Shown here piece by piece: positions 5,652 to 53,991 of a stretch of DNA of 64,000 nucleotides (position 1 is the first letter of the stretch; the number at the start of each line of letters is the position of its first letter). The notes beneath the pieces were generated by a model. That model was given only the letters and a program-made list of their open reading frames with translations. It was not told the DNA's origin and ran no database searches. The stretch comes from Bacteroidota bacterium (GTDB taxonomy: Bacteria > Bacteroidota > Bacteroidia > UKL13-3), in the NCBI GenBank assembly GCA_040388375.1, contig JAZKBU010000003.1, positions 124,001-188,000 on the forward strand. The letters run 5' to 3'. The translations under genes and the position numbers were made by a program.

Positions 5652-8435
5652 ATGTTAAAAAAATTTATATTAAACATTAGTTTTTGCTTGGCAGTTATTG
5701 CCTCGCAAGCGCAAGCATTGCTTCCAACAGGTTGGAATTTTTCTTCTCCCAGCAGTACAACACCACCAACGGGGTGGACATTAAATTTAGGTACCAATGG
5801 CAACACTACTTACGCTTTTGGAGTAGGCGATGCTATTGCCTGCAGATTAGATGCAACAGGTGAAAATATAGTGATTAATGTAGCTGACAAACCCGGTACA
5901 TTAAGTTATTATTTAAGCCCCCAAAATGCAGGAAATCCTTGGGGAGGTCAGTTTGATATTCAAGAAAGTAATGATGGAGGAACTTGGTCAATAGTGCGTT
6001 CAGTTACTTCAAAAGCCACTACAACAACCAATTTTACAAATGGTAAGTATACCGATGTTTTAAAACAAACAACTCGTTTTGTCAGGTTTTATTATACCAC
6101 TAAAATAGCAGGCGGTAGTGCTTCTATACCAGGTGGTAATATGGCGTTAGATAGTGTATTAATTACAGCAGCTCCTATTGCAGCAACCCCAACCATACAA
6201 GTTAGTGGCAACACAGGAATTATTGGCAACAATGGTGATTATACCGTAGGTAATGCAACCAGCTTTACTTTTAAAGTTAAAAATGTTGGATCAGCCGATA
6301 CTTTAGTTATTGATAGTATTAATTTTAGTGGAAGTAGTGCTTCAGCATATGCAGTTACCAATACATTTCCTATTAAAGTAGCCTCAAAAGATTCAATGCT
6401 TATTAATTGTACCCTTAATACAAGCGGTAATGGTAGCAGGTTAGCAGCTATTAATATTTTTAACAACGATGTAGATAAACAACAATTTATTGCAAACCTA
6501 TATGGTATTGCCGGTAGCCTTGCCACAGAACCTTTGTTTAAACCCGTATCAGTTACTTTTAGCAATATTACTGCATATGGTTTAAATGTTGTATTAGCCG
6601 ATACAGCTACTGCTTCAACAGAAAACTACATAGTATTGCGCAAACGCAACGGAACAATAACAGAAGTTCCCGTTGATGGACAAACCTACCAAAAAGGAGA
6701 TTATATAGGTGCTGCACAAGTAGCCTATATTGGTCAAGTGGGTTCATTTAAACCAACCTATATTTTGGCCAACAATAACTACACCTTTGCTGCTTTTGCA
6801 TTTAACGGTCCTTCAACTTACGAAAACTATTTAACCAGTAATTTTACTTCATCATCAGTTCAATCATTGGCAGGAAATGCAGGTAGCTACTACAGTAGTA
6901 TCAATACAAGTGCTCCTACTTTCATAGCAGATTTAAGTGCTAAAGTAAATCCACACGATACCATTTTTTATAGCAACTATATTACTACGGTAATCAATAA
7001 TTTTTTAACCAGAGATACCATACAAGGTAAAAAAGTAGTGAATTGCGTATATACAGGCATTGCTTATGTATACAACGAGCCATTTGTGTGGAATGCAAGT
7101 AATAGCACAGGAATATTAACTAGGGAACATACACGTGCGCAAAGCACTATGCCTAGTAATACCGCTGCACAAAATCCAAGCTGGCCTCGTAGCCCAAGTA
7201 ATTTAGAACTACCGGAATATAACGACCAACATAATTTATTCCCTGCCGATCAAATTAATGCAAATGGTGTTCGTTCCAACTATCCTTTTGGGGAATGTGT
7301 AACTGTTACATCTACTTCGCCAACAGGTAAAGGTAAATTGGGTAAAGATGCCAATAACAATACCATATACGAGCCTAAAGATGAGCAAAAAGGAGATTTA
7401 GCACGTGCTTTATTCTACATGTCAGTTTGCTATAACGGTATAAATGGAAACAACTGGAGCTTGCCGTCTAATCAAGGCTTAGCTGTATTATTAAAATGGC
7501 ACCAACAAGATCCACCAAGTGAAGAAGAAATTGCACGTCATGAATACATTGCTTCAGTACAGCACAATAGAAACCCATTCATTGACAATCCTAGCTGGGC
7601 TAATTTGATTGATTTCAAAACAATGACATTGATTCAAAACAAAGTGTTAACGGTAAATGCACCCAATGGTGGCGAAAATCTTATTGCAGGTAAAACAACA
7701 CCTGTTATCTGGTTGTCAGCAAACATAACAGGCAAAGTAAAATTAGAATATACTACTAATGGAACAGACTTTAATTTTATTGATTCAGTAAATGCGACTA
7801 CCGGAAATTATTCATGGACAATACCAGCAGTAGCTACCAGCACTGCAAAAATTAAAGTATCAGCAACCGATAATTCAATCAGCGATTTGAGTAATGCCAA
7901 CTTTACTATCAGTGTACCATCGTTACAATTATTAACCCCTGTAGCTACTGATATATGGAAAGGCAACGACAATAAATATATTACATGGCAAAGTGCTTTT
8001 GTTGATTCTATTACTATTGATTTAAAAGATGGCTCAACATTACTTTGGTCAATAAAAGAAGCTGCAGGTAAAGACAGTTTTTCTATTGCTGTACCAGATG
8101 TAAACGCAAATAATGCCAAAGTTTACATAACCGAAGTAAACGGCAGTTTAAAAGACAGCAGCGCTGCCTTTAAAATTGAAAAAAGCGTATCAGTTCGCGA
8201 AGTATCAAACACAACCTTTGTTGTATATCCTAATCCGTCAAATGGAACCATTTACTTTAATACAAACATGAACATACGCAATGCTACTTATGAATTGTTT
8301 GATGTAACAGGTAAGTTAATGGCTGCGGATAATTTAGATAAAACAAATGCTATCCATATAGCACAAAAAGGAATTTATATTTTAAAGGCAAGTATTGATG
8401 AAAAAACCATTATTAAGAAAATAGTTGTAGAATAG
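5652..8435 (+). CDS. Secreted endonuclease I family protein with T9SS type A sorting domain
   Basis: A 927-residue multidomain exported nuclease. Order: signal peptide (to about residue 22); beta-sandwich region to about 175; choice-of-anchor-D-like domain (about 185-285); FN3-like region (about 290-415); endonuclease I domain (about 430-665); an Ig-like domain starting NAPNGGENLIAGKTTPVIW; and a C-terminal sorting domain with NPSNGTIYF and a KGIYILKASI strand. Catalytic features are REHTRAQS with His493, DQHNLFPAD near residue 525, GDLARALFYM and QHNRNPFIDNP. Family members cut DNA or RNA with a divalent metal. The T9SS tail implies release or cell-surface anchoring, so a role in nucleic acid scavenging is likely (inference). 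Confidence 0.9.
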   Translation: MLKKFILNISFCLAVIASQAQALLPTGWNFSSPSSTTPPTGWTLNLGTNGNTTYAFGVGDAIACRLDATGENIVINVADKPGTLSYYLSPQNAGNPWGGQFDIQESNDGGTWSIVRSVTSKATTTTNFTNGKYTDVLKQTTRFVRFYYTTKIAGGSASIPGGNMALDSVLITAAPIAATPTIQVSGNTGIIGNNGDYTVGNATSFTFKVKNVGSADTLVIDSINFSGSSASAYAVTNTFPIKVASKDSMLINCTLNTSGNGSRLAAINIFNNDVDKQQFIANLYGIAGSLATEPLFKPVSVTFSNITAYGLNVVLADTATASTENYIVLRKRNGTITEVPVDGQTYQKGDYIGAAQVAYIGQVGSFKPTYILANNNYTFAAFAFNGPSTYENYLTSNFTSSSVQSLAGNAGSYYSSINTSAPTFIADLSAKVNPHDTIFYSNYITTVINNFLTRDTIQGKKVVNCVYTGIAYVYNEPFVWNASNSTGILTREHTRAQSTMPSNTAAQNPSWPRSPSNLELPEYNDQHNLFPADQINANGVRSNYPFGECVTVTSTSPTGKGKLGKDANNNTIYEPKDEQKGDLARALFYMSVCYNGINGNNWSLPSNQGLAVLLKWHQQDPPSEEEIARHEYIASVQHNRNPFIDNPSWANLIDFKTMTLIQNKVLTVNAPNGGENLIAGKTTPVIWLSANITGKVKLEYTTNGTDFNFIDSVNATTGNYSWTIPAVATSTAKIKVSATDNSISDLSNANFTISVPSLQLLTPVATDIWKGNDNKYITWQSAFVDSITIDLKDGSTLLWSIKEAAGKDSFSIAVPDVNANNAKVYITEVNGSLKDSSAAFKIEKSVSVREVSNTTFVVYPNPSNGTIYFNTNMNIRNATYELFDVTGKLMAADNLDKTNAIHIAQKGIYILKASIDEKTIIKKIVVE

Positions 8436-11458: not shown

Positions 11459-14176
11459 ATGAAAAAAATATACTTAATCAGTATTCTTTTTTTATTATAC
11501 AGCCTGCAAGTCAAGTCAATTAACAAACCCTTTAATCAATCAGTGGGGTATATTGAAAACAAAGGCCAAATAATAGATCAAAATAATAGTTCTAATCCAT
11601 CTGTAAAATATTTATACAATGGTAATGGTTTAAATATACAATTGAAAGTCAATGGATTTAGCTACGATACTTATACCATAGAAAAAAAACCAAAAGCAAA
11701 AAACGAAACATACGAAGAACAAAACCTTCGGGAAAAATTCAAAACTCCACAAGAAGATATTACCTATCATTTCCATCGAATAGACATAGAATTTATAGGT
11801 GCCAATACCAAGCCGACCATAGTGGCCGAACAAGCCAATACCGGCTATACCAATTACTATACCGCTGGTACCAATGAAGAGGGGGTTACTTTTGTGAAAA
11901 CCTATCAGAAAGTAACATATAAAAACTTATATGAAGGTATCGACTTGGAGTTTGTATTGGACCAAAATGATAAACCAAAATACAATTTTATAATACATCC
12001 GGAAGCAGATGCCAGCCTTATAAAATGGAAATATATAGGAGCCAACAAAACCAGTATAGAAAATGACAAGATAATACTGGGTACAGCCTTTGGTAATTTA
12101 GAAGAGAGAATACCAATTAGTTATATGGCAGAAAACAGAGCAAACGTAGAGGTCAAATATCAGCAAAAAGAAAACATCTTTAGCTTTCATGCTAATTTAT
12201 ACAACCAAACCCAAACATTAATTATTGATCCTGTTTTATGGTGTACATATTATGGAGGAGTTGGTAGTGAAAATGGCAGTGATATGAGTATTGATACCAG
12301 CGGAAATATATTTGTTTGTGGGAGTGCATCCTCCAGTTCAAATATAGCCACAATTGGGTCTCATCAAGCAAGTCTTGGGGGTAATAGTGATGACGGTTTT
12401 ATTGTTAAATTCAATAGTTCAGGAGTACGTCTTTGGGGAACTTATTATGGTGGAACTGTAAGTGATGAGTTCAGAAGTATAACGGTGGATAAACAGGGGC
12501 AAAATATTTATGCCGGTGGAGTTACAAATTCAACAATTAATATTGCAACCAGTGGTGCACATCAAACTGCCAAAGGCAGCGCTGGGACAAGTACTCCATC
12601 GGATGCATTTTTAGTTAAATTCAATGATTTAGGTATAAGAATATGGGGAACATATTATGGAGGAGGTGCCTATGACCAAGCCTATATTGTAACAACGGAC
12701 TTTACAGGGAACGTTTACCTGGGTGGTTTAACAAATGCTTCTGATAATATAGCCACAAGTGGGGCTCATCAGGTAAATATTGCAGCGGTTCTATATTATG
12801 ATGGATTTATTGCTAAATTTAATGCCTCAGGTACAAGATTGTGGGGGACTTATTATGGAGGAACTGGTTGGGACGCAATTGTCGGAATAGTTACCGATGT
12901 AACCGGCAATGTGTATGCTTGTGGTGGTACATTCTCAACTAGTGGTATTGCTACAATCGGGGCACATCAGGTAGCACATGCTAATATTGGTAGTGAAGAT
13001 GGACTTGTGGTTAAATTCGATTCGTTAGGTGTTAGGTTGTGGGGAACTTATTATGGTGGAACATCACAAGATGGCCCAAATGATATTACAAATGATAACA
13101 ATGGAGATATTTATATTTGTGGTCACACAACATCTTCTACCAATATAGCAAGTGTTGGTGCCCATATGCCAACTTATGCAGGTGGGCAGGATGGTTTTAT
13201 TGCAAAATTCAATAGTTTAGGAGTACGTCTTTGGGGAACTTATTATGGAGGAAATTCACTGGATGATTTTAAGTCAATAATTATTGATAATATAGGAAAT
13301 GTTTTTTTAGGAGGAGCTAGTTCCTCTACTACAAATATTGCTAGTAGCATAGCTAATCAAACAGTTTTGGGAGGGAGTAGTGATGGCATTGTAGTTAAAT
13401 TTAATAGCTTTGGTGTCCGTTTATGGGCCACTTATTTTGGAGGAAATAATGGTGATGGTATAGGTAGTCTTGGTGTTGACTATGCGGGTAATATTTATGT
13501 ATGTGGTAGCACATTATCCACGTCTAATTTGGCTACCTTTGGGGCACATCAAACAGCTTTGTCTAGTATTAGTTCAACTGATGCGTTTATAGCATCGTTT
13601 ACATCTAGTGGTGGTTTACCTGTGAAATTACTTTCTTTTACTGGTAAAAAAGATAGTAGAAATATTACACTTACATGGCAAACAGCCAGTGAAATAAATA
13701 ATGAAAAATTTGAAATAGAACGTTCTTTTAATAATAAGGATTGGGCCAAAATTGGCAACGTAAAGGGCAATGGAACGAGTAGCATAACAAATCAATACCA
13801 ATTTACGGATAATAGTTTTTCATTAATTAATGAGCAACCGCCAAGTTTATATTATCACTTAAAACAAATAGATTTTGATGGTTCTTTTGAATATAGTAAA
13901 ACTGTTTTAGTATCAAATAGTGGCTTTCAAGAAAATAATATATTACCCAATCCTTTTGTTAATGAATTAACTATTGATTTAAATAGTTCGAATGCAGGAA
14001 TTGCTAAGGTTAAAATTACAGATGTAATGGGAAGAGAATATTATAACAGCAATGAAAATATAAGCGAAGGGTTTAATCAAATACAAGTTAATACTACACT
14101 GTTTGAAAGAGGTATTTATATAATACAAATACTGGTAAATGATGAAATAATTAGCAAAAAAGTATTAAAGCAATAA
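11459..14176 (+). CDS. SBBP-repeat beta-propeller protein with T9SS type A sorting domain
   Basis: A 905-residue exported protein. After a signal peptide comes an N-terminal domain of the type that precedes SBBP repeats (VGYIENKGQIIDQ, then two beta-rich segments up to about 250). Seven SBBP repeats follow, each opening with a WGTYYGG-like motif and continuing D-x-GN-x-Y-x-x-G and IAT-GAHQ. They run from about residue 257 to 715 and most likely fold as a beta-propeller. A GLPVKLLSF stalk module (from about 719) leads into the C-terminal sorting domain (NPFVNELTIDL, ERGIYIIQI). Its role is unknown; adhesion or glycan binding at the cell surface is inferred. The repeats are not identical at DNA level, indicating an old array. 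Confidence 0.88.
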   Translation: MKKIYLISILFLLYSLQVKSINKPFNQSVGYIENKGQIIDQNNSSNPSVKYLYNGNGLNIQLKVNGFSYDTYTIEKKPKAKNETYEEQNLREKFKTPQEDITYHFHRIDIEFIGANTKPTIVAEQANTGYTNYYTAGTNEEGVTFVKTYQKVTYKNLYEGIDLEFVLDQNDKPKYNFIIHPEADASLIKWKYIGANKTSIENDKIILGTAFGNLEERIPISYMAENRANVEVKYQQKENIFSFHANLYNQTQTLIIDPVLWCTYYGGVGSENGSDMSIDTSGNIFVCGSASSSSNIATIGSHQASLGGNSDDGFIVKFNSSGVRLWGTYYGGTVSDEFRSITVDKQGQNIYAGGVTNSTINIATSGAHQTAKGSAGTSTPSDAFLVKFNDLGIRIWGTYYGGGAYDQAYIVTTDFTGNVYLGGLTNASDNIATSGAHQVNIAAVLYYDGFIAKFNASGTRLWGTYYGGTGWDAIVGIVTDVTGNVYACGGTFSTSGIATIGAHQVAHANIGSEDGLVVKFDSLGVRLWGTYYGGTSQDGPNDITNDNNGDIYICGHTTSSTNIASVGAHMPTYAGGQDGFIAKFNSLGVRLWGTYYGGNSLDDFKSIIIDNIGNVFLGGASSSTTNIASSIANQTVLGGSSDGIVVKFNSFGVRLWATYFGGNNGDGIGSLGVDYAGNIYVCGSTLSTSNLATFGAHQTALSSISSTDAFIASFTSSGGLPVKLLSFTGKKDSRNITLTWQTASEINNEKFEIERSFNNKDWAKIGNVKGNGTSSITNQYQFTDNSFSLINEQPPSLYYHLKQIDFDGSFEYSKTVLVSNSGFQENNILPNPFVNELTIDLNSSNAGIAKVKITDVMGREYYNSNENISEGFNQIQVNTTLFERGIYIIQILVNDEIISKKVLKQ

Positions 14177-40899: not shown

Positions 40900-43800
40900 A
40901 TGGAAAAAACAACTACAAAACTCAAATTTGAGTTTTCAAAGTTGCTGTTAGTAGTGCTATTTTTTGGTGCGCTAATAAGTAATTTGAATGCACAAGTAAC
41001 AGTTACAATTACGCTTAATTGTAATGGAAACACTGGTTCTTTAGCATCGGGCTCTGTTAGCTCTACGGGAACTATTAACGATGGAGATATGGTAACCATT
41101 AATAGTTCTGCCAATAGAGGATGGGCCAAATTCGATCTTTCTTTTTTACCTGCAGGTGCAACAATTAATTCGGCTACTGCATTTTTTACGACTTTTTCTT
41201 CTACCTTATCAGGTGCAACTAATTCTGTTTTTGGTTTTACTGGCGACCCGTCAAGTATGACCGGAGCGGCATTATACGCTAATTGCGGTTCAGGTACCGT
41301 TTACAATTCTTCTACTTGGTCGGCAAATGCTTTACAAACTAAAGCGCTTAACCCAGCGGGTATTTCGTTCTTACAAGCTAATGTTGGTAATGCCAACGTT
41401 AATTTAGGTTATGTAAGAGGATCAACAAATACTTATAATATTTCTGGTTACCCTGGTCGTTCGGCTAATACACAACCTCAATTACAAATTACTTATACTA
41501 TTCCTGCAGCAGTTCCTTCTTCTGCAACTACTTTATCTGCAAGTAAAATATTGGTATCATCTGCAACACTAAAAGGAGGTATAACAGTTGGTAGTACACT
41601 TCCAACTAGTGTAACTTTTACTGGTATCGTTATATCAACATCAGCTAACCCTTCAGTGGGCGGCATAGGCGTTATTGATTCATCAACTATTCCTTTGGTT
41701 AATTCTGGAACCATTTCATTTGATGTAACGGGTTTAACTTTAGGTACTACTTATCATTACAGAGCATACGTTCTTGATACTATTGGAACAAGTGCTAATA
41801 TAGCTTATGGTGCTGATAGCACTTTTACTACCCCGACAACTGCTCCGGTTCCAACGGTTCAACGCAATGTAGCTACCAATGTGCTTGCAAATACGGCTAC
41901 TGTTGGAGGGACTATTATTTCTAATGGTGGAATTCCAATTCTTTCAAGTGGAGTGGTATATAGTACTACTAATAATCCTTTACAATTTGGAGTAGGTGTT
42001 GTAGATTCAACTACAAATCCAGTTGTTACTTCAGGAAGTTTTTCAGTTAATCCTGCCGGTTTAACTGCTACTACCAAATATTATTACAGGGCTTATGCCA
42101 CTAACTCAACAGGCATAGCTTATAGTGCTTTAGATAGTTTTACTACTGCACCGGTTGTATCAACCTTTCCTTATACTCAGAATTTTGATGGCGCGGGTAA
42201 TACAGGATGGAATAGTGTTATTGTTGTTGGATCATTTAATAATTGGGCAGTAGGTACTCCAACAAAAGCAACTATTTCAGCGGCCTTTAGTGCTCCTAAT
42301 TGTTGGACAACAGGTCTTTCAACGCAATACGTAGATAACCACGATGCTGCATTAGTTTCTCCTCAATTGGACTTAACAGCATTTACTTCAAATGCTGTTT
42401 TGAAATTTAAACACCGTTTTATCACAGAGTCTTGTTGTGATGGAGGTTTTTTAGAAATTTCTATTGGTGGAGGTGCTTGGACAAAAGTAGAAAATGTAAT
42501 AGGTACTGGAGGGAATTTTAATACTACAAATGGAACAGCTTGGTACAATTTGACAACTCAAGGAAACTCTTGGGCTGATAATAGCAATGCATACTCTACT
42601 CAAGCTGGAGGTTGGATTACTAGCTTAATTCAATTACCAGGAACTTCAGGGCAGTCAAATGTAAGATTAAGATTTAGATTTGTTACAGATGTCAGTGCAG
42701 TTGCAGATGGTTGGGCTATTGATGATATAGAAGTATTCTCTCCTGCAGCTCCAACAGTAGTTACAGGAACAAAAAGCGGTATTACTACAAATATTGCTAC
42801 TATAGGTGGTAATATTACCAATAATGGCGGTGCAGGTATAACAGCAAGTGGTGTTGTATTCAGTACTTCTCCAACGCCAACTATTGCTGGTTTTGGTGTT
42901 GTTGACTCTACTACAAACCCAGTAGTTACCGGTGGTACTTTTACTAAAAATATTGCAGGTTTATTAAATGGTACTACTTATTACTACCGTGCTTATGCTA
43001 CAAATCCGGTAGGTACTTCTTACGGTGCTGATAGTACATTTACTACCAATGCAGCAGCAACAGCTCCAACATTATTAAAAATAGCAGCTACCAATGTATC
43101 TGATACAGGAGCTAATATTGGCGGTAATATTACACTTGATGGTGGTGCAGCAGTAACATCCAGCGGTGTTGTTTATTCAACTACCTCTAATCCGTTAATT
43201 GGCGGTTTGGGCGTTATTGATTCAACTACCAATCCATTGGTAACAACTGGAAGTTTTACATTTAATATAATAGGACTTACTGCTAATACTAAATATTATT
43301 ACTCAGCTTATGCAGTAAATTCAGCCGGTACAACTTATACTTTACAAGATAGTTTTACAACTGCACCGGTTGTATCAACTTTCCCATATACTGAAAATTT
43401 TGATGCTGGTAGCAGTATTGGAACAGGGTGGGCTTCGGTAGCTACGGGTGGTTTAAATGAGTGGGTTCTTGGAACTCCGGCTAAAACACAGTTAAGTGGT
43501 GCTTATAGCGGAACTAAATGCTGGTTTACAAGTACTGCTGCTAATTACTCTGATAACAGTGATGCAGCTGTAGTATCACCTAAATTTGACTGTACAAGTT
43601 TAACAGCAGATCCAATAGTAAGATTCAGACATAACTTCACAACAGAAGCAGGTTGGGATGGATCAGTATTAGAAATATCAATTAACAATGGTGCTTGGAC
43701 TAAGTTAGATAATACTTTAGGAACAGGAGGTAACTTTAATACCGCTAATAGTATTAGCTGGTATAATAACTCAAGTGCTTCAGGTCCAATGACTCCTCCA

Positions 43801-46122
43801 AAATGGTCAGAAAACAGTAGCTTATTTTCAAGTAAAGTAGGTACTTGGATTCAAAGTACAACTCAATTAACAGGAGCTGCAGGCCAGGGTAATGTTAGAT
43901 TTAGAATACGTTTTGCTTCGGATGGTTCAGGAACATCAGAAGGTTGGGCTTTTGATAATATAGAAGTTTTCTCTCCGGTTGCACCAACTATGCTTACTGG
44001 AACAAAAACCAATATTACAACCAGCCAAGCAACTTTAGCCGGTACTATTGTTAGCAATGGTAACGCAACTATAACAGCAAGTGGTGTTGTATTTAGTACT
44101 TTCCCTGCACCAACCCTAGGTGGTTTTGGAGTAGTTGATTCAGTTACTTCTCCATTGGCTACAAACGGAAGTTTTACTGTAAACGTTGCAGGCTTAACCA
44201 ATTCAACTACTTATTACTACCGTGCTTATGCAATAAACGGAATAGGTACTACTTATGGTGCTGATAGTACATTTACTACTAATTCTTCAGCCGTTGCTCC
44301 AACTATATTAAAAATAGCAGCAACTAATGTATCTGACTCAGGTGCTAATATCGGAGGTAATATTACTTCAGATGGAGGTTCGCCAGTAACAGCAAGTGGT
44401 GTTGTATATGCTACTACCAGTAACCCTGCTTTATTGGGGTCAGGTGTAATAGATTCAACTACAAGTCCTTTAGTTACTTCAGGAACTTTCACTGTTAATC
44501 CTATTGGTTTAGCTTCTAATACAAAATATTATTTCCGTGCTTATGCAAGTAATGCAGTAGGTACAGGTTATAGTATACAAGATAGTTTTACAACTGCACC
44601 TATTGTATCAGTTTTCCCATACACTGAAAATTTTGATGGTAGTAGCAGTATTTCTACAGGATGGACAACAGTAGCTACAGGTGGTTTAAATGAATGGCTT
44701 GTTGGAACTCCGGCAAAAACACAGTTAAGTGGTGCTTATAGCGGAACTAAATGCTGGTTTACAAGTGCTGCTGCTAATTATTCTGATAACCATAATGGAG
44801 CAGTTGTTTCACCTAGATTTGATTTTACAAGTTTAACATCAGATCCTGTAGTAAGATTCAGACATAACTTTACAACAGAAGCAGGTTGGGATGCAGCAGT
44901 ATTAGAAATATCAATTAACAATGGTGCATGGACTAAGTTAGATGATAACTTAGGAACAGGTGTAAACTTTAATACACTTAGCAGCTATAGCTGGTATAAT
45001 AGCTCAAGTACTGCCGGTCCGATGACTCCTTCAAAATGGTCGCAAAACAGTAACTTGTTCTCAAGCAATGTTAGCAACTGGATTCAAAGTGCTACCCGTT
45101 TAACAGGAGCTGCCGGTCAGTCAAATGTTAAATTCAGAATACGTTTTGCTTCAGATGGTTCAGGAACAGACGAAGGTTGGGCTTTTGACAACGTAGAAGT
45201 AGTAAATGATTTAACGCCAACTATACCAACAGGAACAGTAACATTAACACCTAATGGAACATCAGTAAACGTAGCATTTGTACCGGGTAACGGTCAAGGT
45301 CGTTTAGTAGTTGCAAGGTTAACATCAACTACAGCAGTTGCTCCTTACGATACTGTTTTATATACAGCTAACGCAGCATTTGGAAGTGGCGACTTAGTAG
45401 GAACAGGTAACTATGTAGTTTACAATGGTACAGGTTCATCAGTAAACGTAACAGGTTTAACTACAGTAACAGGTTACAGTTTTGATGTATATGAGTACAA
45501 TGGTAAATATATGCATAATAAATTTGCAGCCGCCTCAAGCAATACAACTACCACATTACCGGTTAAATTAGTAAGCTTTACAGCTAACAATGTAGAAGGT
45601 AATGTACAATTGAAATGGATAACTGCTAATGAAATAAACAACAAAGGATTTGAAGTAGAACGTTCAGTAGACGGTAAAAACTTCAGTTCAATAGGTTTTA
45701 TAAAAGGCGCAGGAAACACTAACAAAACAACAAACTATAGCAAAATAGATTTAGGCGCATTTGTAGCAACTTCATCAAACGTATTATACTATAGATTAAA
45801 ACAAGTTGATTTTGATGGTACACCAACCTATTCAAATCAGGTAGCAGTGAACGAAAACGAATTGGTATCAAATGGAGTTAAGATTTATCCGAATCCATTT
45901 AACAAAACGTTGACAGTAGATATTTCATCAGATATAAATACAAACACCACGATAGCTATCACTGATATCAGTGGTAAAATAATATCTACAGTTGTGGTAC
46001 CAGTATCAATCGGGAACAATACAACAACGTTACCGAACTTAGATTTATTAACTGCAGGCATTTACTTTGTAAAAGTATCAAACGGTACTAAAGCAGAAGT
46101 ATTTAAAGTAATAAAATACTAA
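40900..46122 (+). CDS. Giant modular T9SS surface protein A (DNRLRE, FN3 and jelly-roll repeats)
   Basis: About 1740 residues from the ATG at 40900, which opens with a signal peptide ending NLNAQ; an upstream TTG frame extension is unlikely. Order: DNRLRE-type domain (about 25-200) with GWAKFDLSFLPAGATI; then three rounds of two FN3-like repeats plus one MAM/choice-of-anchor-J jelly roll. FN3 repeats read ASGVVYSTTSNP and TYYYRAYATN; jelly rolls begin PYTENFDG and end DEGWAFDNVEV. A final beta domain, an LPVKLVSFTANN stalk and a type A sorting domain (YPNPFNKTLTVDI, TAGIYFVKVS) follow. Repeat period is about 1.2 kb and unit DNA is highly similar. Probably an adhesin anchored to the surface. 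Paralogue of the gene at 48793. Confidence 0.88.
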   Translation: MEKTTTKLKFEFSKLLLVVLFFGALISNLNAQVTVTITLNCNGNTGSLASGSVSSTGTINDGDMVTINSSANRGWAKFDLSFLPAGATINSATAFFTTFSSTLSGATNSVFGFTGDPSSMTGAALYANCGSGTVYNSSTWSANALQTKALNPAGISFLQANVGNANVNLGYVRGSTNTYNISGYPGRSANTQPQLQITYTIPAAVPSSATTLSASKILVSSATLKGGITVGSTLPTSVTFTGIVISTSANPSVGGIGVIDSSTIPLVNSGTISFDVTGLTLGTTYHYRAYVLDTIGTSANIAYGADSTFTTPTTAPVPTVQRNVATNVLANTATVGGTIISNGGIPILSSGVVYSTTNNPLQFGVGVVDSTTNPVVTSGSFSVNPAGLTATTKYYYRAYATNSTGIAYSALDSFTTAPVVSTFPYTQNFDGAGNTGWNSVIVVGSFNNWAVGTPTKATISAAFSAPNCWTTGLSTQYVDNHDAALVSPQLDLTAFTSNAVLKFKHRFITESCCDGGFLEISIGGGAWTKVENVIGTGGNFNTTNGTAWYNLTTQGNSWADNSNAYSTQAGGWITSLIQLPGTSGQSNVRLRFRFVTDVSAVADGWAIDDIEVFSPAAPTVVTGTKSGITTNIATIGGNITNNGGAGITASGVVFSTSPTPTIAGFGVVDSTTNPVVTGGTFTKNIAGLLNGTTYYYRAYATNPVGTSYGADSTFTTNAAATAPTLLKIAATNVSDTGANIGGNITLDGGAAVTSSGVVYSTTSNPLIGGLGVIDSTTNPLVTTGSFTFNIIGLTANTKYYYSAYAVNSAGTTYTLQDSFTTAPVVSTFPYTENFDAGSSIGTGWASVATGGLNEWVLGTPAKTQLSGAYSGTKCWFTSTAANYSDNSDAAVVSPKFDCTSLTADPIVRFRHNFTTEAGWDGSVLEISINNGAWTKLDNTLGTGGNFNTANSISWYNNSSASGPMTPPKWSENSSLFSSKVGTWIQSTTQLTGAAGQGNVRFRIRFASDGSGTSEGWAFDNIEVFSPVAPTMLTGTKTNITTSQATLAGTIVSNGNATITASGVVFSTFPAPTLGGFGVVDSVTSPLATNGSFTVNVAGLTNSTTYYYRAYAINGIGTTYGADSTFTTNSSAVAPTILKIAATNVSDSGANIGGNITSDGGSPVTASGVVYATTSNPALLGSGVIDSTTSPLVTSGTFTVNPIGLASNTKYYFRAYASNAVGTGYSIQDSFTTAPIVSVFPYTENFDGSSSISTGWTTVATGGLNEWLVGTPAKTQLSGAYSGTKCWFTSAAANYSDNHNGAVVSPRFDFTSLTSDPVVRFRHNFTTEAGWDAAVLEISINNGAWTKLDDNLGTGVNFNTLSSYSWYNSSSTAGPMTPSKWSQNSNLFSSNVSNWIQSATRLTGAAGQSNVKFRIRFASDGSGTDEGWAFDNVEVVNDLTPTIPTGTVTLTPNGTSVNVAFVPGNGQGRLVVARLTSTTAVAPYDTVLYTANAAFGSGDLVGTGNYVVYNGTGSSVNVTGLTTVTGYSFDVYEYNGKYMHNKFAAASSNTTTTLPVKLVSFTANNVEGNVQLKWITANEINNKGFEVERSVDGKNFSSIGFIKGAGNTNKTTNYSKIDLGAFVATSSNVLYYRLKQVDFDGTPTYSNQVAVNENELVSNGVKIYPNPFNKTLTVDISSDINTNTTIAITDISGKIISTVVVPVSIGNNTTTLPNLDLLTAGIYFVKVSNGTKAEVFKVIKY
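45586..45875 (+). repeat. 290-nt exact direct repeat, copy 1 (in giant protein A)
   Basis: By eye comparison this stretch is identical to 53455-53744. The repeat lies within a longer collinear homology reaching to both gene ends, offset 7869 bases. Confidence 0.85.
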
Positions 46123-46177
46123 ATTAATAATTGTTTTAATGAGCAATAGTTTTTAACACTAACTTATTGCTATTTTC

Positions 46178-46214
46178 AAAAAGGCCACTTGTCAAAAGAT
46201 AAGCGGCCTTTTTG
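46178..46214 (+). terminator. Terminator after giant protein A
   Basis: AAAAAGGCCACTT pairs with AAGCGGCCTTTTT (one A-C mismatch) around a 10-base loop and ends in a T-run. Confidence 0.75.
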
Positions 46215-46467
46215 ATTTGAAGTTGATTAATGAAAAGTAAGAACTATTTGAACAGTGTTTTGAATTGGATTTGGAAAGTAAAAATAGTTGTTAATCGAAG
46301 GTTGATTTTTAGTTGTATGAAAAAATAGTTAGTAATAATATTTATTAGTTTTAATATTTGCTTTGAACAGAACAAGTTTTAAGTAAGAAAAACAAATGTT
46401 CCAATCCAGTTAGAACAAATTAGGAAAATAAAAAAAGGTAGTTATTTATATAAAGCTAGAGAAATGA
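46215..46467. other. AT-rich spacer without recognisable gene
   Basis: After the terminator I see no ORF, hairpin or promoter worth naming here. Confidence 0.4.
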
Positions 46468-46802
46468 ATGATACTTCTGCTTATAAATGATGAGTGGGTA
46501 GAAGTTGGTATGTTTTTAATACAAGGTACTGCTCGTGAAGACCATTATTTAATTATTGATAGACCTATTACTAATAATAGGTTTAGTGATGAATTTTTTT
46601 TGTCGTTTATATGATTACTCATAGTCATGAATACAATAATATCTTGATTCAAAAGGAATGGGTGCAAAATTTTAAACTAGATATAGATAGCCATGTTACT
46701 ACTTATACTTTCATTATTAGAGAGGCTGATATTATCATGGATAAACAATACGGTGCTTTTGATTTGGAATCATTTAAAAAATACTTAGAAGTAAATAGCT
46801 GA
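46468..46802 (+). pseudogene. Possible frameshifted small gene or coupled small ORF pair
   Basis: An ORF of 48 codons from the ATG at 46468 (MILLLINDEWVEVGMF...) ends at TGA 46612-46614. It overlaps in ATGA fashion a 63-residue ORF from 46611 to 46802 (MITHSHEYNNILIQKEW...). A run of eight T at 46594-46601 lies at the junction, and a -1 shift there would fuse both into about 110 residues. Either a broken gene, two coupled small proteins, or a slippage/sequence error. No family recognised. The amino acid composition is gene-like, with balanced charged residues. Confidence 0.35.
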
Positions 46803-47071
46803 AATACAATATTTTATTATTTTACTTTCCTATATCCCGATAGTCGTATAAATTTATTAAATAATATTTATCAAATTAAGTATACCACTTTTTTTTAGTG
46901 TAAACATAAGTGCAAATCAAAATAGTCTCTATAACTATTACGAGGTGTTACTTGGATATTTAATTTGTCAACGGTTATTTTTGATGTGCGAAATTAATCA
47001 CAATAGATGCTAAATGAGGAATATTTTATTTGAAAATAATTGAATGTTAAATAATGGGTAAATTTTATTCA
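46803..47071. other. AT-rich spacer, no gene seen
   Basis: Contains a lone half of the TCCCGATA palindrome near 46835 and a T8 tract, but no ORF or clear signal. Confidence 0.4.
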
Positions 47072-48700
47072 TTAGTTTACTCTATAAACAATGTTTCTGG
47101 TTTTTAGCGGATTTGTTTTTGAAGTAATATTGACTATTATTTCATCCATATTTTTTGTTTTTATTTTTATTGTTTCTTCTTTACTTTTTTGTGCAGCTAC
47201 GGCAATAGTAGAAGAACATTCTTCTATAACTGTATTATTTGATGTAACATTTACTGTATATTCATCATCGTCACTTCCATTATTATTTATTATCAACTTA
47301 ACTTCTTGTTCTTTGTTTAGTTTTAAGTTTTTGGAACTCTTATATTGTATCGTAAAATAATTGGGATAAAGAGAAGAGCAATAATGGGATCTGTAGCTTG
47401 ATTGAGGAGTAAAAATATCTGTTTCTTTATCTCTTCTAAATGAGCGGCATTCCCAAATAATTTCTTTTTTTCTGTTCACTTCAAAAACCCTATTATTCGC
47501 ACCACTTGTGATTAAAATATTGCCATTTGGTAGCAAGTCTGCATCACCGGCTTTAGCACATTTATTTTCTTCCATTTTCGGAAAAGAAAATTTGTATTCC
47601 CATACAATATTTACAAAAGTATCTGATGAAGTAACTTGATTGATTTCTTGTATAGAAGAAACTGAATTAGGTGATTCTTTATCAATAGTATTGTTGTTAA
47701 ATAGTAATAAATTTTTGTTTGGCAGTAAACTTAAACTATGCTGTCCAGAGAAAAACCGATTATTAATATTTCCAATATACTTTATAATATAGGAGGTATC
47801 ACTAGCAGTCCTTATTTTGTTAATGCTATTTAAATTGCGATTACTTATATAAACAATTCCTCTATCTGTATCTATGTCAATGGCATTAATATGGTTTGAT
47901 AAAACATTATCCATTCGTTTGTAATAAATAGGTTCTTCGTCCCATTTCCAATACAAATTATTTTTTCGGTCTATTTCAAATATTACACTGAAAAGTTTAT
48001 CTGTTTCATAACTAAGTTTCTTTTCTGCAACACATAGAAAATGGCCATTTTTTAATTTTTTGAAATCGTGATGATAATTTTTTATCAATGTGGTATCGTT
48101 AAGAAAAAAAGGCGCTTTCCATGTTTTTTTGCCATTTAAGTCCGTTTCAAAAGAACCATTTGACCCATTGTAAGTAATAGTGCCATCTGGATTTAAATTT
48201 AAGTTTCTAGATGCCCCATCGTTATCTGGTAAAAACCAAAGCACTTCCCCCTTTTTGTTAGCAATAACACCATAATCGTACACAATAAGACCATTGTACA
48301 TTTTTAGAGGATTATTGGATTTGGTTTCCTGTTTTATGAGTAGAGAAGAACTCCAATTTGATTTAGCAATATAAAAGTTTGAAATATTTGAAGTAGTTAA
48401 AATACTACCATTTTTTTTGAATCCTTTAGCTCGCCAATAATAGTGGTTTCCGAAGTTAAAGCCACTATCAATCCTTATGGCTAAACCTGCTATTTTTTTT
48501 TTTATAAAAATATGTTTTTCAAATTGATCAAGGCTTGTTGATATTTCTATTTGGTAGCTTTGAGCACCCTCTACTTGTTCATATTCAAACATAATTTGTC
48601 TATAGTTTAAGGTGTCTAAATAGTTAGGACTAATGAGCGTTATTTGCCCAAATAACAAATTGGAAATGAGGTAGAAAAAAATCAAAACGGATAACTTCAT
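47072..48700 (-). CDS. Exported arylsulfotransferase (ASST)-like beta-propeller protein
   Basis: A 542-residue protein from the ATG at 48700, which begins a signal peptide ending LLFGQ; an earlier in-frame start adds 12 residues. After an FN3-like domain (about 20-115) comes a propeller region of ASST type: DYGVIANKKGEVLWFLP, LNLNPDGTITYNG, HHDFKKLKNGHFLCVAE, ISNRNLNSINKI, SGQHSLSLLPNKNLLLFNN and AGDADLLPNGNILITSG. It ends in a small Ig-like domain. True ASST enzymes use a catalytic histidine to move sulfate between phenols; GQHS is a candidate, but enzymatic activity is inference. No T9SS tail. It lies antisense between the two giant T9SS genes. Confidence 0.7.
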   Translation of the reverse strand: MKLSVLIFFYLISNLLFGQITLISPNYLDTLNYRQIMFEYEQVEGAQSYQIEISTSLDQFEKHIFIKKKIAGLAIRIDSGFNFGNHYYWRAKGFKKNGSILTTSNISNFYIAKSNWSSSLLIKQETKSNNPLKMYNGLIVYDYGVIANKKGEVLWFLPDNDGASRNLNLNPDGTITYNGSNGSFETDLNGKKTWKAPFFLNDTTLIKNYHHDFKKLKNGHFLCVAEKKLSYETDKLFSVIFEIDRKNNLYWKWDEEPIYYKRMDNVLSNHINAIDIDTDRGIVYISNRNLNSINKIRTASDTSYIIKYIGNINNRFFSGQHSLSLLPNKNLLLFNNNTIDKESPNSVSSIQEINQVTSSDTFVNIVWEYKFSFPKMEENKCAKAGDADLLPNGNILITSGANNRVFEVNRKKEIIWECRSFRRDKETDIFTPQSSYRSHYCSSLYPNYFTIQYKSSKNLKLNKEQEVKLIINNNGSDDDEYTVNVTSNNTVIEECSSTIAVAAQKSKEETIKIKTKNMDEIIVNITSKTNPLKTRNIVYRVN

Positions 48701-48729
48701 GTGTAAACTTAACTTAACTTTAATTATTA

Positions 48730-48762
48730 TTTGCAAATATGACTATCAAAATGATATTTTTG
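48730..48762 (+). promoter_or_regulatory. Bacteroidota promoter for giant protein B
   Basis: TTTG at 48730-48733, a 21-base spacer and TATTTTTG at 48755-48762 match the phylum consensus. The ATG is 30 bases downstream. Confidence 0.65.
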
Positions 48763-48792
48763 TATTAAACAAATTAACAAACTTAAATTAAA

Positions 48793-51700
48793 ATGAAAAA
48801 AAATTACTTATTAGCGTTGCTTTTATTTATTTCAGCGCTTTCTTTTGGTCAGGTCAGGGTCTTGGAGGATTTTGATGTATCAATGACTCCCACGGGCTGG
48901 ACAAATTCTTTAAATTCGGGAACACTTATATCCAGACAAACCACTGTAAATAGCTATGGTAGGGCTGGTGTAGTTGCTGCAGTAAGAGCCAATAACTATA
49001 ATGTTGCTTCTGGTAATAGAGCACGTTTGGAAACCAATCTTTTTACGTCTTCTGTTTCTGGAGATTCTTTATCATTAGATGTGGCACATAGAGCTTATCC
49101 CGCCTATACGGATTCACTTATCATACATGCTTTTGACGGTACCTCATTTGTAAGATTAATTGGTTGGGGGTCAAGCCAATTATTAGATACTATAACTGGT
49201 ATTACTACGGGTACCCCCATAACAGGTAGTTTTACTCCAACCTCTACCGAATGGTGTCGCAAAACGATTGCACTGCCTATTGGAACAACGCAAATAAGGT
49301 TTGAGTTTTTTTCTAATTTCGGAAATATAATTTGGATAGATAATATTGTGATAGCTACTCCTGGCGCTCCTGTGGTACCTATTACTGGTACTAAATCTAA
49401 TTTAACCTCTTCAAGTGTTAACTTAGCAGCCACTATTGCTAATAGTTTTCCGTCAGTTACCGCTAGTGGAGTGGTTATTGGTACAAGCCCGGGTCCTATT
49501 AGAGGCTCTGCAATTGATTCAGCTTCTAATCCTTTAGTAGCAAGTGGAAGTTTTACAGTTGATGTTACGGGTTTAAGTAACGCAACTACCTATTACTATC
49601 GCACTTATGCAGTAAATAGTGTTGGTACTTCTTACGGCCCTGACAGTACTTTTACAACCAATGCTTCTGCTGTTGCACCAAGTGTTTTAAAAACAGCACC
49701 AAGTAATATTACTACAACTACCGCTACTTTTGGAGGTAATATTACTTCTGACGGAGGTAGCCCTATTCTTGCCAGTGGTGTAGTTTATGGTACTACGTCA
49801 AATCCAACTATCGGAGATCCGGGAGTTGTTGATTCAACTACCAATCCATTAGTTTCAACCGGTACTTATTCATTTAACGTAGCAGGTTTAGCACACTCAA
49901 CAAAATATTACTATAGAGCTTATGCCACTAATTCAGTTGGTACAGCTTATAGTAGCATACAAGATAGTTTTACTACTGCTCCTATAGTGAGTGCGCTTCC
50001 TTATTTACAGAACTTTGATGGTGCTGGAGTTACTGGTTGGTCTACAACCATAGTAACAGGAGGTGTTAATGACTGGGTTTTAGGTACACCAGCAAAAACG
50101 TTTATAAATGGTGCTTACTCTGGAACCAAAGCTTATGTTACCGGCCTAACCGGAAACTATGCAGGTTCTGATTGTGGTGTAGAATCGCCTCAGTTTGATT
50201 TTACTTCACAAACCCTTGTACCAGTATTACGTTTCAAACAAAAATTTGATACGGATGCAGATGGTGACTGGGATGGAGGAGTAGTAGAAATCTCCATCAA
50301 TGGAGGAGCGTGGACCCGTTTAAATTCAACAGTTGGAACAGGTTCAAACTTTAATACTACTTTAAGTACCGGATGGTATAACAATAATACACCTAGCGGT
50401 CCAGTTGGGGCGCCTAAGTTTTCTTACGTTTCATCAGCTTACACAACACAAGTAAACGGATGGATTACCAGTATAACTCCTTTAGTAGGTGCTGCAGGTC
50501 AAGGAAATGTTAAAGTTCGCTTCCGTTTTGGAGCGGATGCTTTTGGAACAGACGAAGGTTGGGCTATTGACGATATTGAAGTTATATTGCCAACAGCTCC
50601 AACTATGGTTACCAGTACAAAAACCAATATTACCAATAATTCAGTAACATTAGGTGGTAATATTACCAGCAATGGAAACTCACCGGTAACGGCAAGTGGT
50701 GTAGTAATCGGAACTTCTGCTGCTCCAACCCTTGGTGGTTTTGGTGTTGTTGATTCTACTACAAACCCTGTAGTTACTGTTGGTGTATATACTAAAAATA
50801 TTACAGGTTTAATTAATTCAACTACTTATTACTACCGTGCTTATGCAACAAATGCAGTAGGTACTACTTACGGTGCTGACAGTACATTTACTACCAATGG
50901 TGCAGCTACAGTTGCTACCGTTACACGTAATGTAGCTACTGCAGTTAATACAACCACTGCAACTATTGGTGGAACTATTAATACCGATGGTGGTGATCCT
51001 GTAACTGTTAGTGGTGTTGTTTATTCAACTACATCAAACCCTGTAATTGGTGGTGGTAGTGTAGTAGATTCAACTACAACTCCTTTGGTTAGTTTAGGTT
51101 CTTTCTCATTTAATGTGGCCGGTTTAACCCACTCAACTAAATACTACTACCGTGCTTATGCCATTAACTCAATAGGTACAGCTTACAGTACACAAGATAG
51201 CTTCACTACAGCTCCTATTGTATCAACTTTACCATATAGTGAAAATTTTGATGGTGTAGGAAATACAGGATGGGCTTCAAGTGCTATAGGCGGTGGTGTA
51301 AACGATTGGCAATTAGGAACGCCTGCAAAAACCAATATTAACTCAGCTTACAGTACTCCTAATGCATGGGTTACTAAATTAACAGGTAACTATAGCAATA
51401 ATTCTTATTCAGGTTTAGTATCGCCTCAGTTTGATTTTACTACTGCGACTGCTGATCCGATTTTACGTTTCCGTCATAAATTCAGGTTTGTACAAACTGC
51501 TATTGATGGTGCTATTGTTGAAATATCAATTAACAATGGAGCTTGGACACAATTAGATAATACAGTAGGAACAGGCGCAAACTTTAATACAGCTAACAGT
51601 ACCTCATGGTATTCCGCTAACACAAGTTTTTGGAATTCACTATCAGGAGCTATGTTTGCTAATAACAGTACTTCTTATGCTACACAAGTAGGTGGCTGGA

Positions 51701-53991
51701 TTCAGTCAACTGTTAGATTAACTGGTGCTGCTGGTCAATCAAACGTGAAAGTAAGAATGACATTTAACTCAACTACATTTACTTTCTTTGGAGTAGAAGA
51801 AGGTTGGGCTGTTGATAATATTGAAGTTTTTCCTCCTGTTGCACCAACTATGCTTACAGGAACAAAAACAAATATTACAACCAACCAAGCAACTTTAGCA
51901 GGTACTATTGTTAGCAATGGTAATGCAACTATAACTGCAAGTGGTGTGGTGTTTAGTACTATTCCAGCACCAACCCGTGGTGGTTTTGGTGTAGTTGATT
52001 CAGCTACTTCTCCATTGGTAACAGGCGGAAGCTTTACTGTAAATGTTGCAGGTTTAACCAATTCAACTACTTATTACTACCGTGCTTATGCAGTAAATGG
52101 AATTGGTACTACTTATGGTGCTGATAGTACATTTACTACCAATGCCTCGGCTGCGGTACCATCGGTATTAAAAGTACCAGCAACTAATATAACAGCATCA
52201 TCAGTTACTTTTGGTGGAAATATTACTTCTAACGGAGGTGACCCAGTAACAGCCAGTGGTATTGTTTATGGAACAACTTCAAATCCTGCTATTGGTGATT
52301 TAGGTATTGTTGATTCAACTACTAATCCTTTAGTTGCTGCAGGAACCTACTCATTCAGTACAGTAGGGTTAACACATACTACTAAATACTATTACAGAGC
52401 ATATGCTACCAATGGTGTTGGTACCGCTTATAGTGTACAAGATAGTTTTACTACAGCTCCTATTATTTCTACTTTACCATACGCTGAAAATTTTGATGGT
52501 GTAACAACACCTTGGACAACTCAGGCTATCAACGGTAGAGTAAATTCGTGGGCTCGTGGTACACCTACTAAAATAGTTCTTAATAGTGCTTTTTCAGCGC
52601 CAAATGCTTTCGTTACTAACTTAACTGCTAATTACGGTTTAGTTGGTGATGAAGAAGGTGCTTTGGTTTCACCACAATTTAACTTTGCGGCTTTAACTCA
52701 GGATCCTGTAGTAAGATTCAGACATAAAATAAAAACCAACAACGATCCAGGTTGGGATGCAGGTAATGTTGAAATTTCATTGAACGGAGGTACTACTTGG
52801 ACTAAATTAAATGACCAGACAGGAACAAGTACTAATTTCAATACATTAACAAGTTATGCTTGGTATAACAGTACATCAGGTAATGGTTTTCTTACTGCTA
52901 ATAAATTTACAAGTTTAACTTCAGCTTACGCTAGTCAAACCAGCGGATGGATTGAAAGTGCTACTCGTTTAACAGGTGCTGCCGGTCAGTCAAATGTAAA
53001 AATTCGTTTCCATTTTGGTGCTGATGCAGCAGGAACAGATGAAGGTTGGGCAATTGACAATATTGAAGTAGTAAGTGATGTAACACCAACTATACCAACA
53101 GGTACAGTAACCTTAACACCTAACGGAACTTCAGTAAACGTAGCATTTGTACCGGGTAACGGTCAAGGTCGTTTAGTAGTAGCAAGGTTAACTTCAGCTA
53201 CAGCAGTTGTACCTTACGATACAGTTTTATATACAGCTAACGCAGCATTTAGTAGTGGTGACATAACAGGTACAGGAAACTATGTAGTTTACAATGGTAC
53301 AGGTTCATCAGTAAACGTAACAGGCTTAACCACAGTAACAGGTTACAGCTTTGATGTATATGAATACAATGGTAAATATATGCACAATAAATTTGCAGCA
53401 GCCTCAAGCAGTGCTACCACAACTTTACCGGTTAAATTAGTAAGCTTTACAGCAAACAATGTAGAAGGTAATGTACAATTGAAATGGATAACTGCTAATG
53501 AAATAAACAACAAAGGATTTGAAGTAGAACGTTCAGTAGACGGTAAAAACTTCAGTTCAATAGGTTTTATAAAAGGCGCAGGAAACACTAACAAAACAAC
53601 AAACTATAGCAAAATAGATTTAGGCGCATTTGTAGCAACTTCATCAAACGTATTATACTATAGATTAAAACAAGTTGATTTTGATGGTACACCAACCTAT
53701 TCAAATCAGGTAGCAGTGAACGAAAACGAATTGGTATCAAATGGCGTTAAGATTTATCCGAATCCATTTAACAAAACGTTGACAGTAGATATTGCATCAG
53801 ATATAAATACAAACACCACGATAGCTATCACAGATATCAGTGGTAAAGTGATATCAACAACATTGGTACCGGTATCAATCGGAAACAATACAACAACGTT
53901 ACCAAACTTAGATTTATTAACTGCAGGCATTTACTTTGTAAAAGTATCGAACGGTACTAAAACAGAAGTATTTAAAGTAGTGAAATACTAA
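48793..53991 (+). CDS. Giant modular T9SS surface protein B
   Basis: A 1732-residue exported protein with signal peptide ending LSFGQ. Order: an N-terminal jelly-roll domain (about 20-190, starting VLEDFDVSMTPTGW); three rounds of FN3, FN3 and MAM/choice-of-anchor-J jelly roll (from about 190 to 1430); a beta domain; the LPVKLVSFTANN stalk; and a type A sorting domain ending EVFKVVKY. It differs from protein A mainly in its N-terminal domain. From about 51841 it is collinear with protein A from about 43981 at roughly 90% or higher protein identity. Likely surface adhesin or matrix protein. Confidence 0.88.
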   Translation: MKKNYLLALLLFISALSFGQVRVLEDFDVSMTPTGWTNSLNSGTLISRQTTVNSYGRAGVVAAVRANNYNVASGNRARLETNLFTSSVSGDSLSLDVAHRAYPAYTDSLIIHAFDGTSFVRLIGWGSSQLLDTITGITTGTPITGSFTPTSTEWCRKTIALPIGTTQIRFEFFSNFGNIIWIDNIVIATPGAPVVPITGTKSNLTSSSVNLAATIANSFPSVTASGVVIGTSPGPIRGSAIDSASNPLVASGSFTVDVTGLSNATTYYYRTYAVNSVGTSYGPDSTFTTNASAVAPSVLKTAPSNITTTTATFGGNITSDGGSPILASGVVYGTTSNPTIGDPGVVDSTTNPLVSTGTYSFNVAGLAHSTKYYYRAYATNSVGTAYSSIQDSFTTAPIVSALPYLQNFDGAGVTGWSTTIVTGGVNDWVLGTPAKTFINGAYSGTKAYVTGLTGNYAGSDCGVESPQFDFTSQTLVPVLRFKQKFDTDADGDWDGGVVEISINGGAWTRLNSTVGTGSNFNTTLSTGWYNNNTPSGPVGAPKFSYVSSAYTTQVNGWITSITPLVGAAGQGNVKVRFRFGADAFGTDEGWAIDDIEVILPTAPTMVTSTKTNITNNSVTLGGNITSNGNSPVTASGVVIGTSAAPTLGGFGVVDSTTNPVVTVGVYTKNITGLINSTTYYYRAYATNAVGTTYGADSTFTTNGAATVATVTRNVATAVNTTTATIGGTINTDGGDPVTVSGVVYSTTSNPVIGGGSVVDSTTTPLVSLGSFSFNVAGLTHSTKYYYRAYAINSIGTAYSTQDSFTTAPIVSTLPYSENFDGVGNTGWASSAIGGGVNDWQLGTPAKTNINSAYSTPNAWVTKLTGNYSNNSYSGLVSPQFDFTTATADPILRFRHKFRFVQTAIDGAIVEISINNGAWTQLDNTVGTGANFNTANSTSWYSANTSFWNSLSGAMFANNSTSYATQVGGWIQSTVRLTGAAGQSNVKVRMTFNSTTFTFFGVEEGWAVDNIEVFPPVAPTMLTGTKTNITTNQATLAGTIVSNGNATITASGVVFSTIPAPTRGGFGVVDSATSPLVTGGSFTVNVAGLTNSTTYYYRAYAVNGIGTTYGADSTFTTNASAAVPSVLKVPATNITASSVTFGGNITSNGGDPVTASGIVYGTTSNPAIGDLGIVDSTTNPLVAAGTYSFSTVGLTHTTKYYYRAYATNGVGTAYSVQDSFTTAPIISTLPYAENFDGVTTPWTTQAINGRVNSWARGTPTKIVLNSAFSAPNAFVTNLTANYGLVGDEEGALVSPQFNFAALTQDPVVRFRHKIKTNNDPGWDAGNVEISLNGGTTWTKLNDQTGTSTNFNTLTSYAWYNSTSGNGFLTANKFTSLTSAYASQTSGWIESATRLTGAAGQSNVKIRFHFGADAAGTDEGWAIDNIEVVSDVTPTIPTGTVTLTPNGTSVNVAFVPGNGQGRLVVARLTSATAVVPYDTVLYTANAAFSSGDITGTGNYVVYNGTGSSVNVTGLTTVTGYSFDVYEYNGKYMHNKFAAASSSATTTLPVKLVSFTANNVEGNVQLKWITANEINNKGFEVERSVDGKNFSSIGFIKGAGNTNKTTNYSKIDLGAFVATSSNVLYYRLKQVDFDGTPTYSNQVAVNENELVSNGVKIYPNPFNKTLTVDIASDINTNTTIAITDISGKVISTTLVPVSIGNNTTTLPNLDLLTAGIYFVKVSNGTKTEVFKVVKY
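53455..53744 (+). repeat. 290-nt exact direct repeat, copy 2 (in giant protein B)
   Basis: Identical by eye to 45586-45875, in the same orientation 7869 bases away. Flanks differ only by scattered substitutions. Confidence 0.85.

Follow-up and report, generated by a model that had tools for sequence, protein, structure and literature searches.

In a genomic window of 64,000 nucleotides from a Bacteroidota bacterium (contig JAZKBU010000003.1; all positions below are counted from the first letter of the window), we analyzed two genes, A and B, which lie in the same orientation and encode large modular surface proteins predicted to be exported by the type IX secretion system (T9SS). Both proteins follow one plan: a signal-peptide-like start, a head of ~200 amino acids, and a stalk of three ~410-aa FN3-FN3-MAM-like units, followed by an Ig/FN3-like linker, a pre-CTD sandwich domain and a type A sorting domain (C-terminal domain, CTD). 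We found gene conversion tracts between A and B, discordant ancestry of modules within the pair, and one replacement of the head at an orthologous locus of two congeneric genomes. The elements of the pair are the following:

40900..46122, plus strand: gene A, T9SS-exported modular surface protein, ~1740 aa (translation; Por_Secre_tail PF18962/TIGR04183, InhA-like MAM and fn3 matches)
40900..41511, plus strand: signal peptide and private head of A, no Pfam match
41512..45201, plus strand: stalk of A, three ~1.23-kb FN3-FN3-MAM units at 41512-42735, 42736-43968 and 43969-45201 (repeats, module boundaries, FN3 fold match)
45202..46119, plus strand: tail of A, with Ig/FN3-like linker, pre-CTD sandwich domain and T9SS type A CTD (~45883-46116)
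48793..53991, plus strand: gene B, T9SS-exported modular surface protein, 1732 aa (translation, domain searches)
48793..49359, plus strand: signal peptide and private head of B, jelly-roll/MAM-like (relatives in congeners; PDB 3m1h, E=0.11)
49360..53070, plus strand: stalk of B, three FN3-FN3-MAM units at 49360-50583, 50584-51828 and 51829-53070
53071..53988, plus strand: tail of B, including the CTD (~53752-53985)
45586..45875, plus strand: 290-nt perfect repeat, A copy, in the pre-CTD domain
53455..53744, plus strand: 290-nt perfect repeat, B copy
45079..46119, plus strand: conversion tract 1, matching B 52948-53988 (89-100% identity; segmentation; tail dS 0.167)
43938..44279, plus strand: conversion tract 2, first FN3 of unit 3, matching B 51798-52139 (91% identity; dS 0.29)
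42888..43051, plus strand: possible older conversion tract 3, first FN3 of unit 2, matching B 50736-50899 (88% identity; module dS 0.43)

The CTD is located at the extreme C-terminus of both proteins (45.4 bits in A and 48.6 bits in B; Por_Secre_tail/TIGR04183, cut-off 23). The N-termini, read by eye, consist of a hydrophobic stretch followed by AQ or GQ and represent putative signal peptides; the start of gene A was placed at ATG 40900, the reading frame being open already from TTG 40855. There are 64 CTD-like matches in the same genome, a number that suggests the presence of the T9SS machinery. The FN3 fold was matched for the model of the stalk unit, and searches of the stalk units against PDB gave no match at E 0.01. 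The ~1.23-kb units are beyond the 500-nt period limit of Tandem Repeats Finder.

The perfect repeat of 290 nt, for which the original prediction had the right coordinates, is the longest exact repeat of the window (the runner-up is 51 nt) and has the same reading frame in A and B. Mismatches at 45585 and 45876 delimit the run, which spans the pre-CTD domain and ends just 5' of the CTD proper (~45883/~53752, TIGR04183 coordinates). The enclosing block of ~1.04 kb is 89-100% identical, with 89% before the run and 93% after it, and the similarity drops to background right past both stop codons. The prediction also described collinearity over more than 2 kb at an offset of about 7.86 kb, and N-terminal domains that differ completely. 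Collinearity holds for the architecture, whereas high identity is confined to A 45079-46119 and the two shorter upstream tracts; an offset of 7869 nt applies only to the final ~1.04 kb, those of the upstream tracts being 7860 and 7848 nt. The complete difference of the N-termini applies to the first ~200 residues, the remainder being the three homologous FN3-FN3-MAM units.

Shuffling the sites of the ~93% identical block 20,000 times never produced a run of 290 nt (mean of the longest run 65, maximum 182), and the run of 95 consecutive synonymously identical codons (degenerate codons for the same residue) has p = 5e-5. Over the last 188 codons, A and B are 96.8% identical, compared to a mean of 49.8% and a maximum of 58.5% for 294 non-neighboring CTD pairs of the genome. 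At the DNA level the A and B tails are 94% identical, and only 58-60% identical to the tails of congeners. A similarity of the export tails that arose through purifying selection or convergence, with no recombination, would be consistent with the functional constraint on the CTD and with a nonsynonymous divergence (dN) below the synonymous divergence (dS) in the A-B tail. However, the identity extends to the synonymous sites of those 95 codons, which refutes this explanation barring extreme codon constraint, and both the other CTDs of the genome (~50%) and the congener tails are much less alike; we consider it extremely improbable. An assembly artefact, in which a collapsed repeat produced the identity, is suggested by related genes that end at contig edges in several congeners, e.g., G002 and G008 (such handles denote congeneric genomes, G000 being the genome analyzed here). 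Conversely, both copies are on one 608-kb contig with unique flanks and with differing sequence on either side of the run, a repeat of 290 nt is of modest length for an assembly from paired reads, and the ~1-kb similarity and the module trees are independent of the 290-nt run, so that this possibility is highly improbable.

Segmentation of the A-B alignment revealed three sharp-edged tracts at 88-100% identity amid a background of 61-67%. Outside the tracts, dS between A and B is ~0.9-1.3 in most modules and reaches saturation (3.2) in one. The first FN3 of unit 3 is 91% identical between A and B, compared to at most 75% to any other module.

To place the modules in the genus, the tail served as query (E 1e-60) against nine congeneric genomes, which are too distant to allow a strain comparison. 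A single homologue (49-52% protein identity) is present in each of seven genomes, and the other two lack one. In the tail tree, A and B are sisters (100/100). In the MAM tree, units 2 and 3 of A cluster with unit 2 of G003/G004/G007 (99/99), unit 3 of B groups with unit 3 of G001/G009 (97/96), and the approximately unbiased (AU) test rejects sisterhood of the third MAMs of A and B (p 3e-15). Such discordant histories within one gene pair, confined to tracts, point most readily to gene conversion between already divergent copies. As to the direction, the first FN3 of A unit 3 groups loosely with G009/G001, a poorly supported hint of B to A conversion, and no direction is claimed. A separate observation concerns the MAM domains of A units 2 and 3 (window 42736-45201), which are 85% identical in DNA with a dS of 0.41; this suggests duplication or conversion also within gene A.

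A simple recent tandem duplication, in which the 5' halves diverged fast or were replaced once and the 3' end retains the original identity, would account for the common orientation, for the 94% identical tails and for the single strong homologue in other congeners. It is, however, contradicted by the MAM trees, in which modules of A and B group with different congeners, a result that, together with the AU test, strains this explanation. In addition, the dS of the intervening modules is near saturation, and the repeated alternation of high and low identity requires several replacements rather than one. We therefore consider a duplication of this type, with later divergence of the N-domains, unlikely.

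Taken together, A and B are probably divergent paralogues, or a resident and an acquired gene, in which conversion between the copies homogenizes the tails, while heads and MAM modules remain separate and heads are replaceable. Homologous recombination between the neighboring copies would have acted repeatedly and at different times, most recently in the 290-nt tract, and RecA-type conversion would be the enzymatic route. Conversion would keep the tail and some FN3 modules alike, whereas heads and MAM modules would retain their own histories. The tail, the FN3 modules and, in congeners, the gene start may serve as anchors for recombination, with heads exchanged between them. In the proteins, the tail would serve export and anchoring, the stalk would project the head, and the head would set what is bound or acted on; an adhesin or ligand-binding role, and a selective value of head change, would be in line with this arrangement.

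It should be noted that several observations weigh against this interpretation. In the G009-G001 pair, which has the same head, dS is 0.33 in the tail versus 0.36-1.2 in the stalk; part of the 3' identity gradient may be general to the family. Trees of the FN3 modules are short and have weak support. Confidence is low for the MAM portion of the unit model, which gives no reliable MAM fold, and AlphaFold, run on the A head as a single sequence, returned a poor and unusable model (predicted local distance difference test, pLDDT, 44.6). The head replacement at the orthologous locus is one case, between two draft assemblies. Finally, the comparison spans one genome of this species and its congeners. 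Conversion itself, as proposed originally, is supported by the patchiness of the tracts, by module trees that disagree, by the contrast in dS and by the test on the synonymous run, and the word "ongoing" goes beyond these data.

The head replacement was detected by comparing the orthologous locus of G003 and G007 (L140 6953-12367 versus L139 4987-11337). The flanks are ~97% identical; within the homologue, the gene start is similar, the heads are unrelated, and the identity then climbs from 57% to 97-99% toward the tail. This recovery of identity is gradual rather than step-like, which speaks against a simple chimeric join. The first MAM of the G003 gene groups with G009/G001 and B and not with G007, and the 5' part of this gene most likely derives from another lineage, judging by the tree. 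Other comparable CTD genes in G003, G004 and G007 have counterparts that are mostly collinear along the stretches compared, so that head replacement is not shared by all CTD genes in these genomes. The N-domain swapping proposed for the pair is thus upheld as an evolutionary process, through the orthologous locus of the congeners. A possible second example of tail sharing comes from two G007 genes of ~2,300 codons with CTD (L194 and L196), the C-terminal parts of which both match one G004 gene (L206), at 83% and 94%.

The heads themselves have a patchy distribution. Homologues of the A head, at up to 62% identity, occur in 9 of 196 sampled genera of the class, counting its own genus. Ten further genomes sampled from the class carry relatives, usually located right behind the signal peptide of T9SS proteins, and the stalks that follow are mostly unrelated, with MAM-like stalks in two genomes of the same family. 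No second copy of the A head was found in its own genome or in the nine congeners. The B head has relatives at up to 46% identity in congeners, and one weak partial match (32% identity) in its own genome. The original prediction suggested a possible antigen- or ligand-variation system. In a programmed form of antigenic or phase variation, one of the two genes would act as donor and the other as recipient: near-identical tails and different heads would permit exchange of heads by crossover, and the 290-nt repeats are in the same frame. In contrast to silent-cassette antigenic variation systems, donor copies of the A head are absent from the genome and that of the B head is limited to the weak match, with no silent heads found; both genes are full length, unlike silent cassettes. 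A switching apparatus was not found either, although no systematic search for one was made, and the bacterium has no known host. A programmed system is therefore very unlikely, and an antigen-variation system with a supply of heads is not supported.

The closest known case is that of kgp, rgpA and hagA of Porphyromonas gingivalis, which encode T9SS modular adhesins whose diversity is created by domain rearrangement and allelic exchange (PMC5266723); recombination between hagA and kgp deletes the DNA between these neighbors (PMC9328147). The A/B pair works alike, the common traits being the trade of modules and alleles among genes and strains and a homologous recombination that apparently acts between neighboring copies, but it is not a member of that group. 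Unlike Kgp and RgpA, A and B have no cysteine protease domain (no such Pfam match), their stalk is FN3-FN3-MAM and not strings of cleaved-adhesin/DUF2436 domains, and it is the head and MAM modules that concentrate the variability, the tail being homogenized. By sequence they are apparently not gingipain homologues, the B head having only a very weak match to a gingipain K adhesin domain (PDB 3m1h, E=0.11). A literature search on T9SS plus domain shuffling found nothing.

Within the same genome, tandem CTD genes at C2:149-153 kb, C5:198-203 kb and C5:11-16 kb resemble A/B in that the neighbors have different N-termini. In one C5 pair (73% DNA identity) and the C2 pair (63%), the CTDs are more alike than those of any non-neighbors, whereas the remaining neighboring CTD pairs are no closer than distant ones. 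Unlike A/B, these other tandem pairs share exact words of at most 22 nt, and no recent conversion is visible. Two further CTD genes lie in the window, an endonuclease I with a T9SS CTD (5652-8435) and a DUF7948/SBBP propeller protein with a CTD (11459-14176), the latter with a 30-nt exact direct repeat (12421/13219).

The genes A and B are not immediately adjacent, being separated by one 1.7-kb gene of the opposite strand:

47072..48736, minus strand: arylsulfotransferase-like secreted protein gene (PF05935, E=3.7e-16)

Its sole relative in the genus is a 35% match in G005, and the arrangement A-arylsulfotransferase-B appears specific to this genome among the sampled congeners. On the 3' side of the pair is a TonB-dependent receptor gene, present throughout the genus. 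The A/B homologue is at a site beside a 708-aa gene in G003/G004/G007 and not in G001, G002 and G009; at the AnmK site it is present in G001/G009, whereas G007 and G000 lack it there. From these positions, the A/B-type family is judged to change its genomic place. A search of PLSDB plasmids with the tail gave no match. The 708-aa flank gene has a 31% relative in the analyzed genome itself, and this relative carries one in-frame TAA (G000:C7:45318-47453). The Rfam scan of the window found no family; promoter-like matches in the window were below the shuffle expectation and terminator-like matches near it, thus both are uninformative.

These results extend modular recombination of the gingipain/HagA style to a little-studied genus of Bacteroidota, with the ancestry resolved module by module and with one orthologous locus at which the head was replaced. 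Tentatively, the pair may belong to a head-exchange family in environmental Bacteroidota, in which a conserved three-unit stalk and export tail move between genomic sites and receive new heads through homologous recombination between the conserved signal-peptide region and the conserved tail, while conversion between tandem copies maintains the anchors needed for further head exchange. Ligand variation between lineages is plausible. The A/B pair is a natural mix-and-match design rather than a demonstrated antigen-switching system. If this is general, T9SS cargo would be re-headed by recombination with export and anchoring intact, and the unit of annotation for such proteins would be the ligand of the head and not whole-gene orthology.
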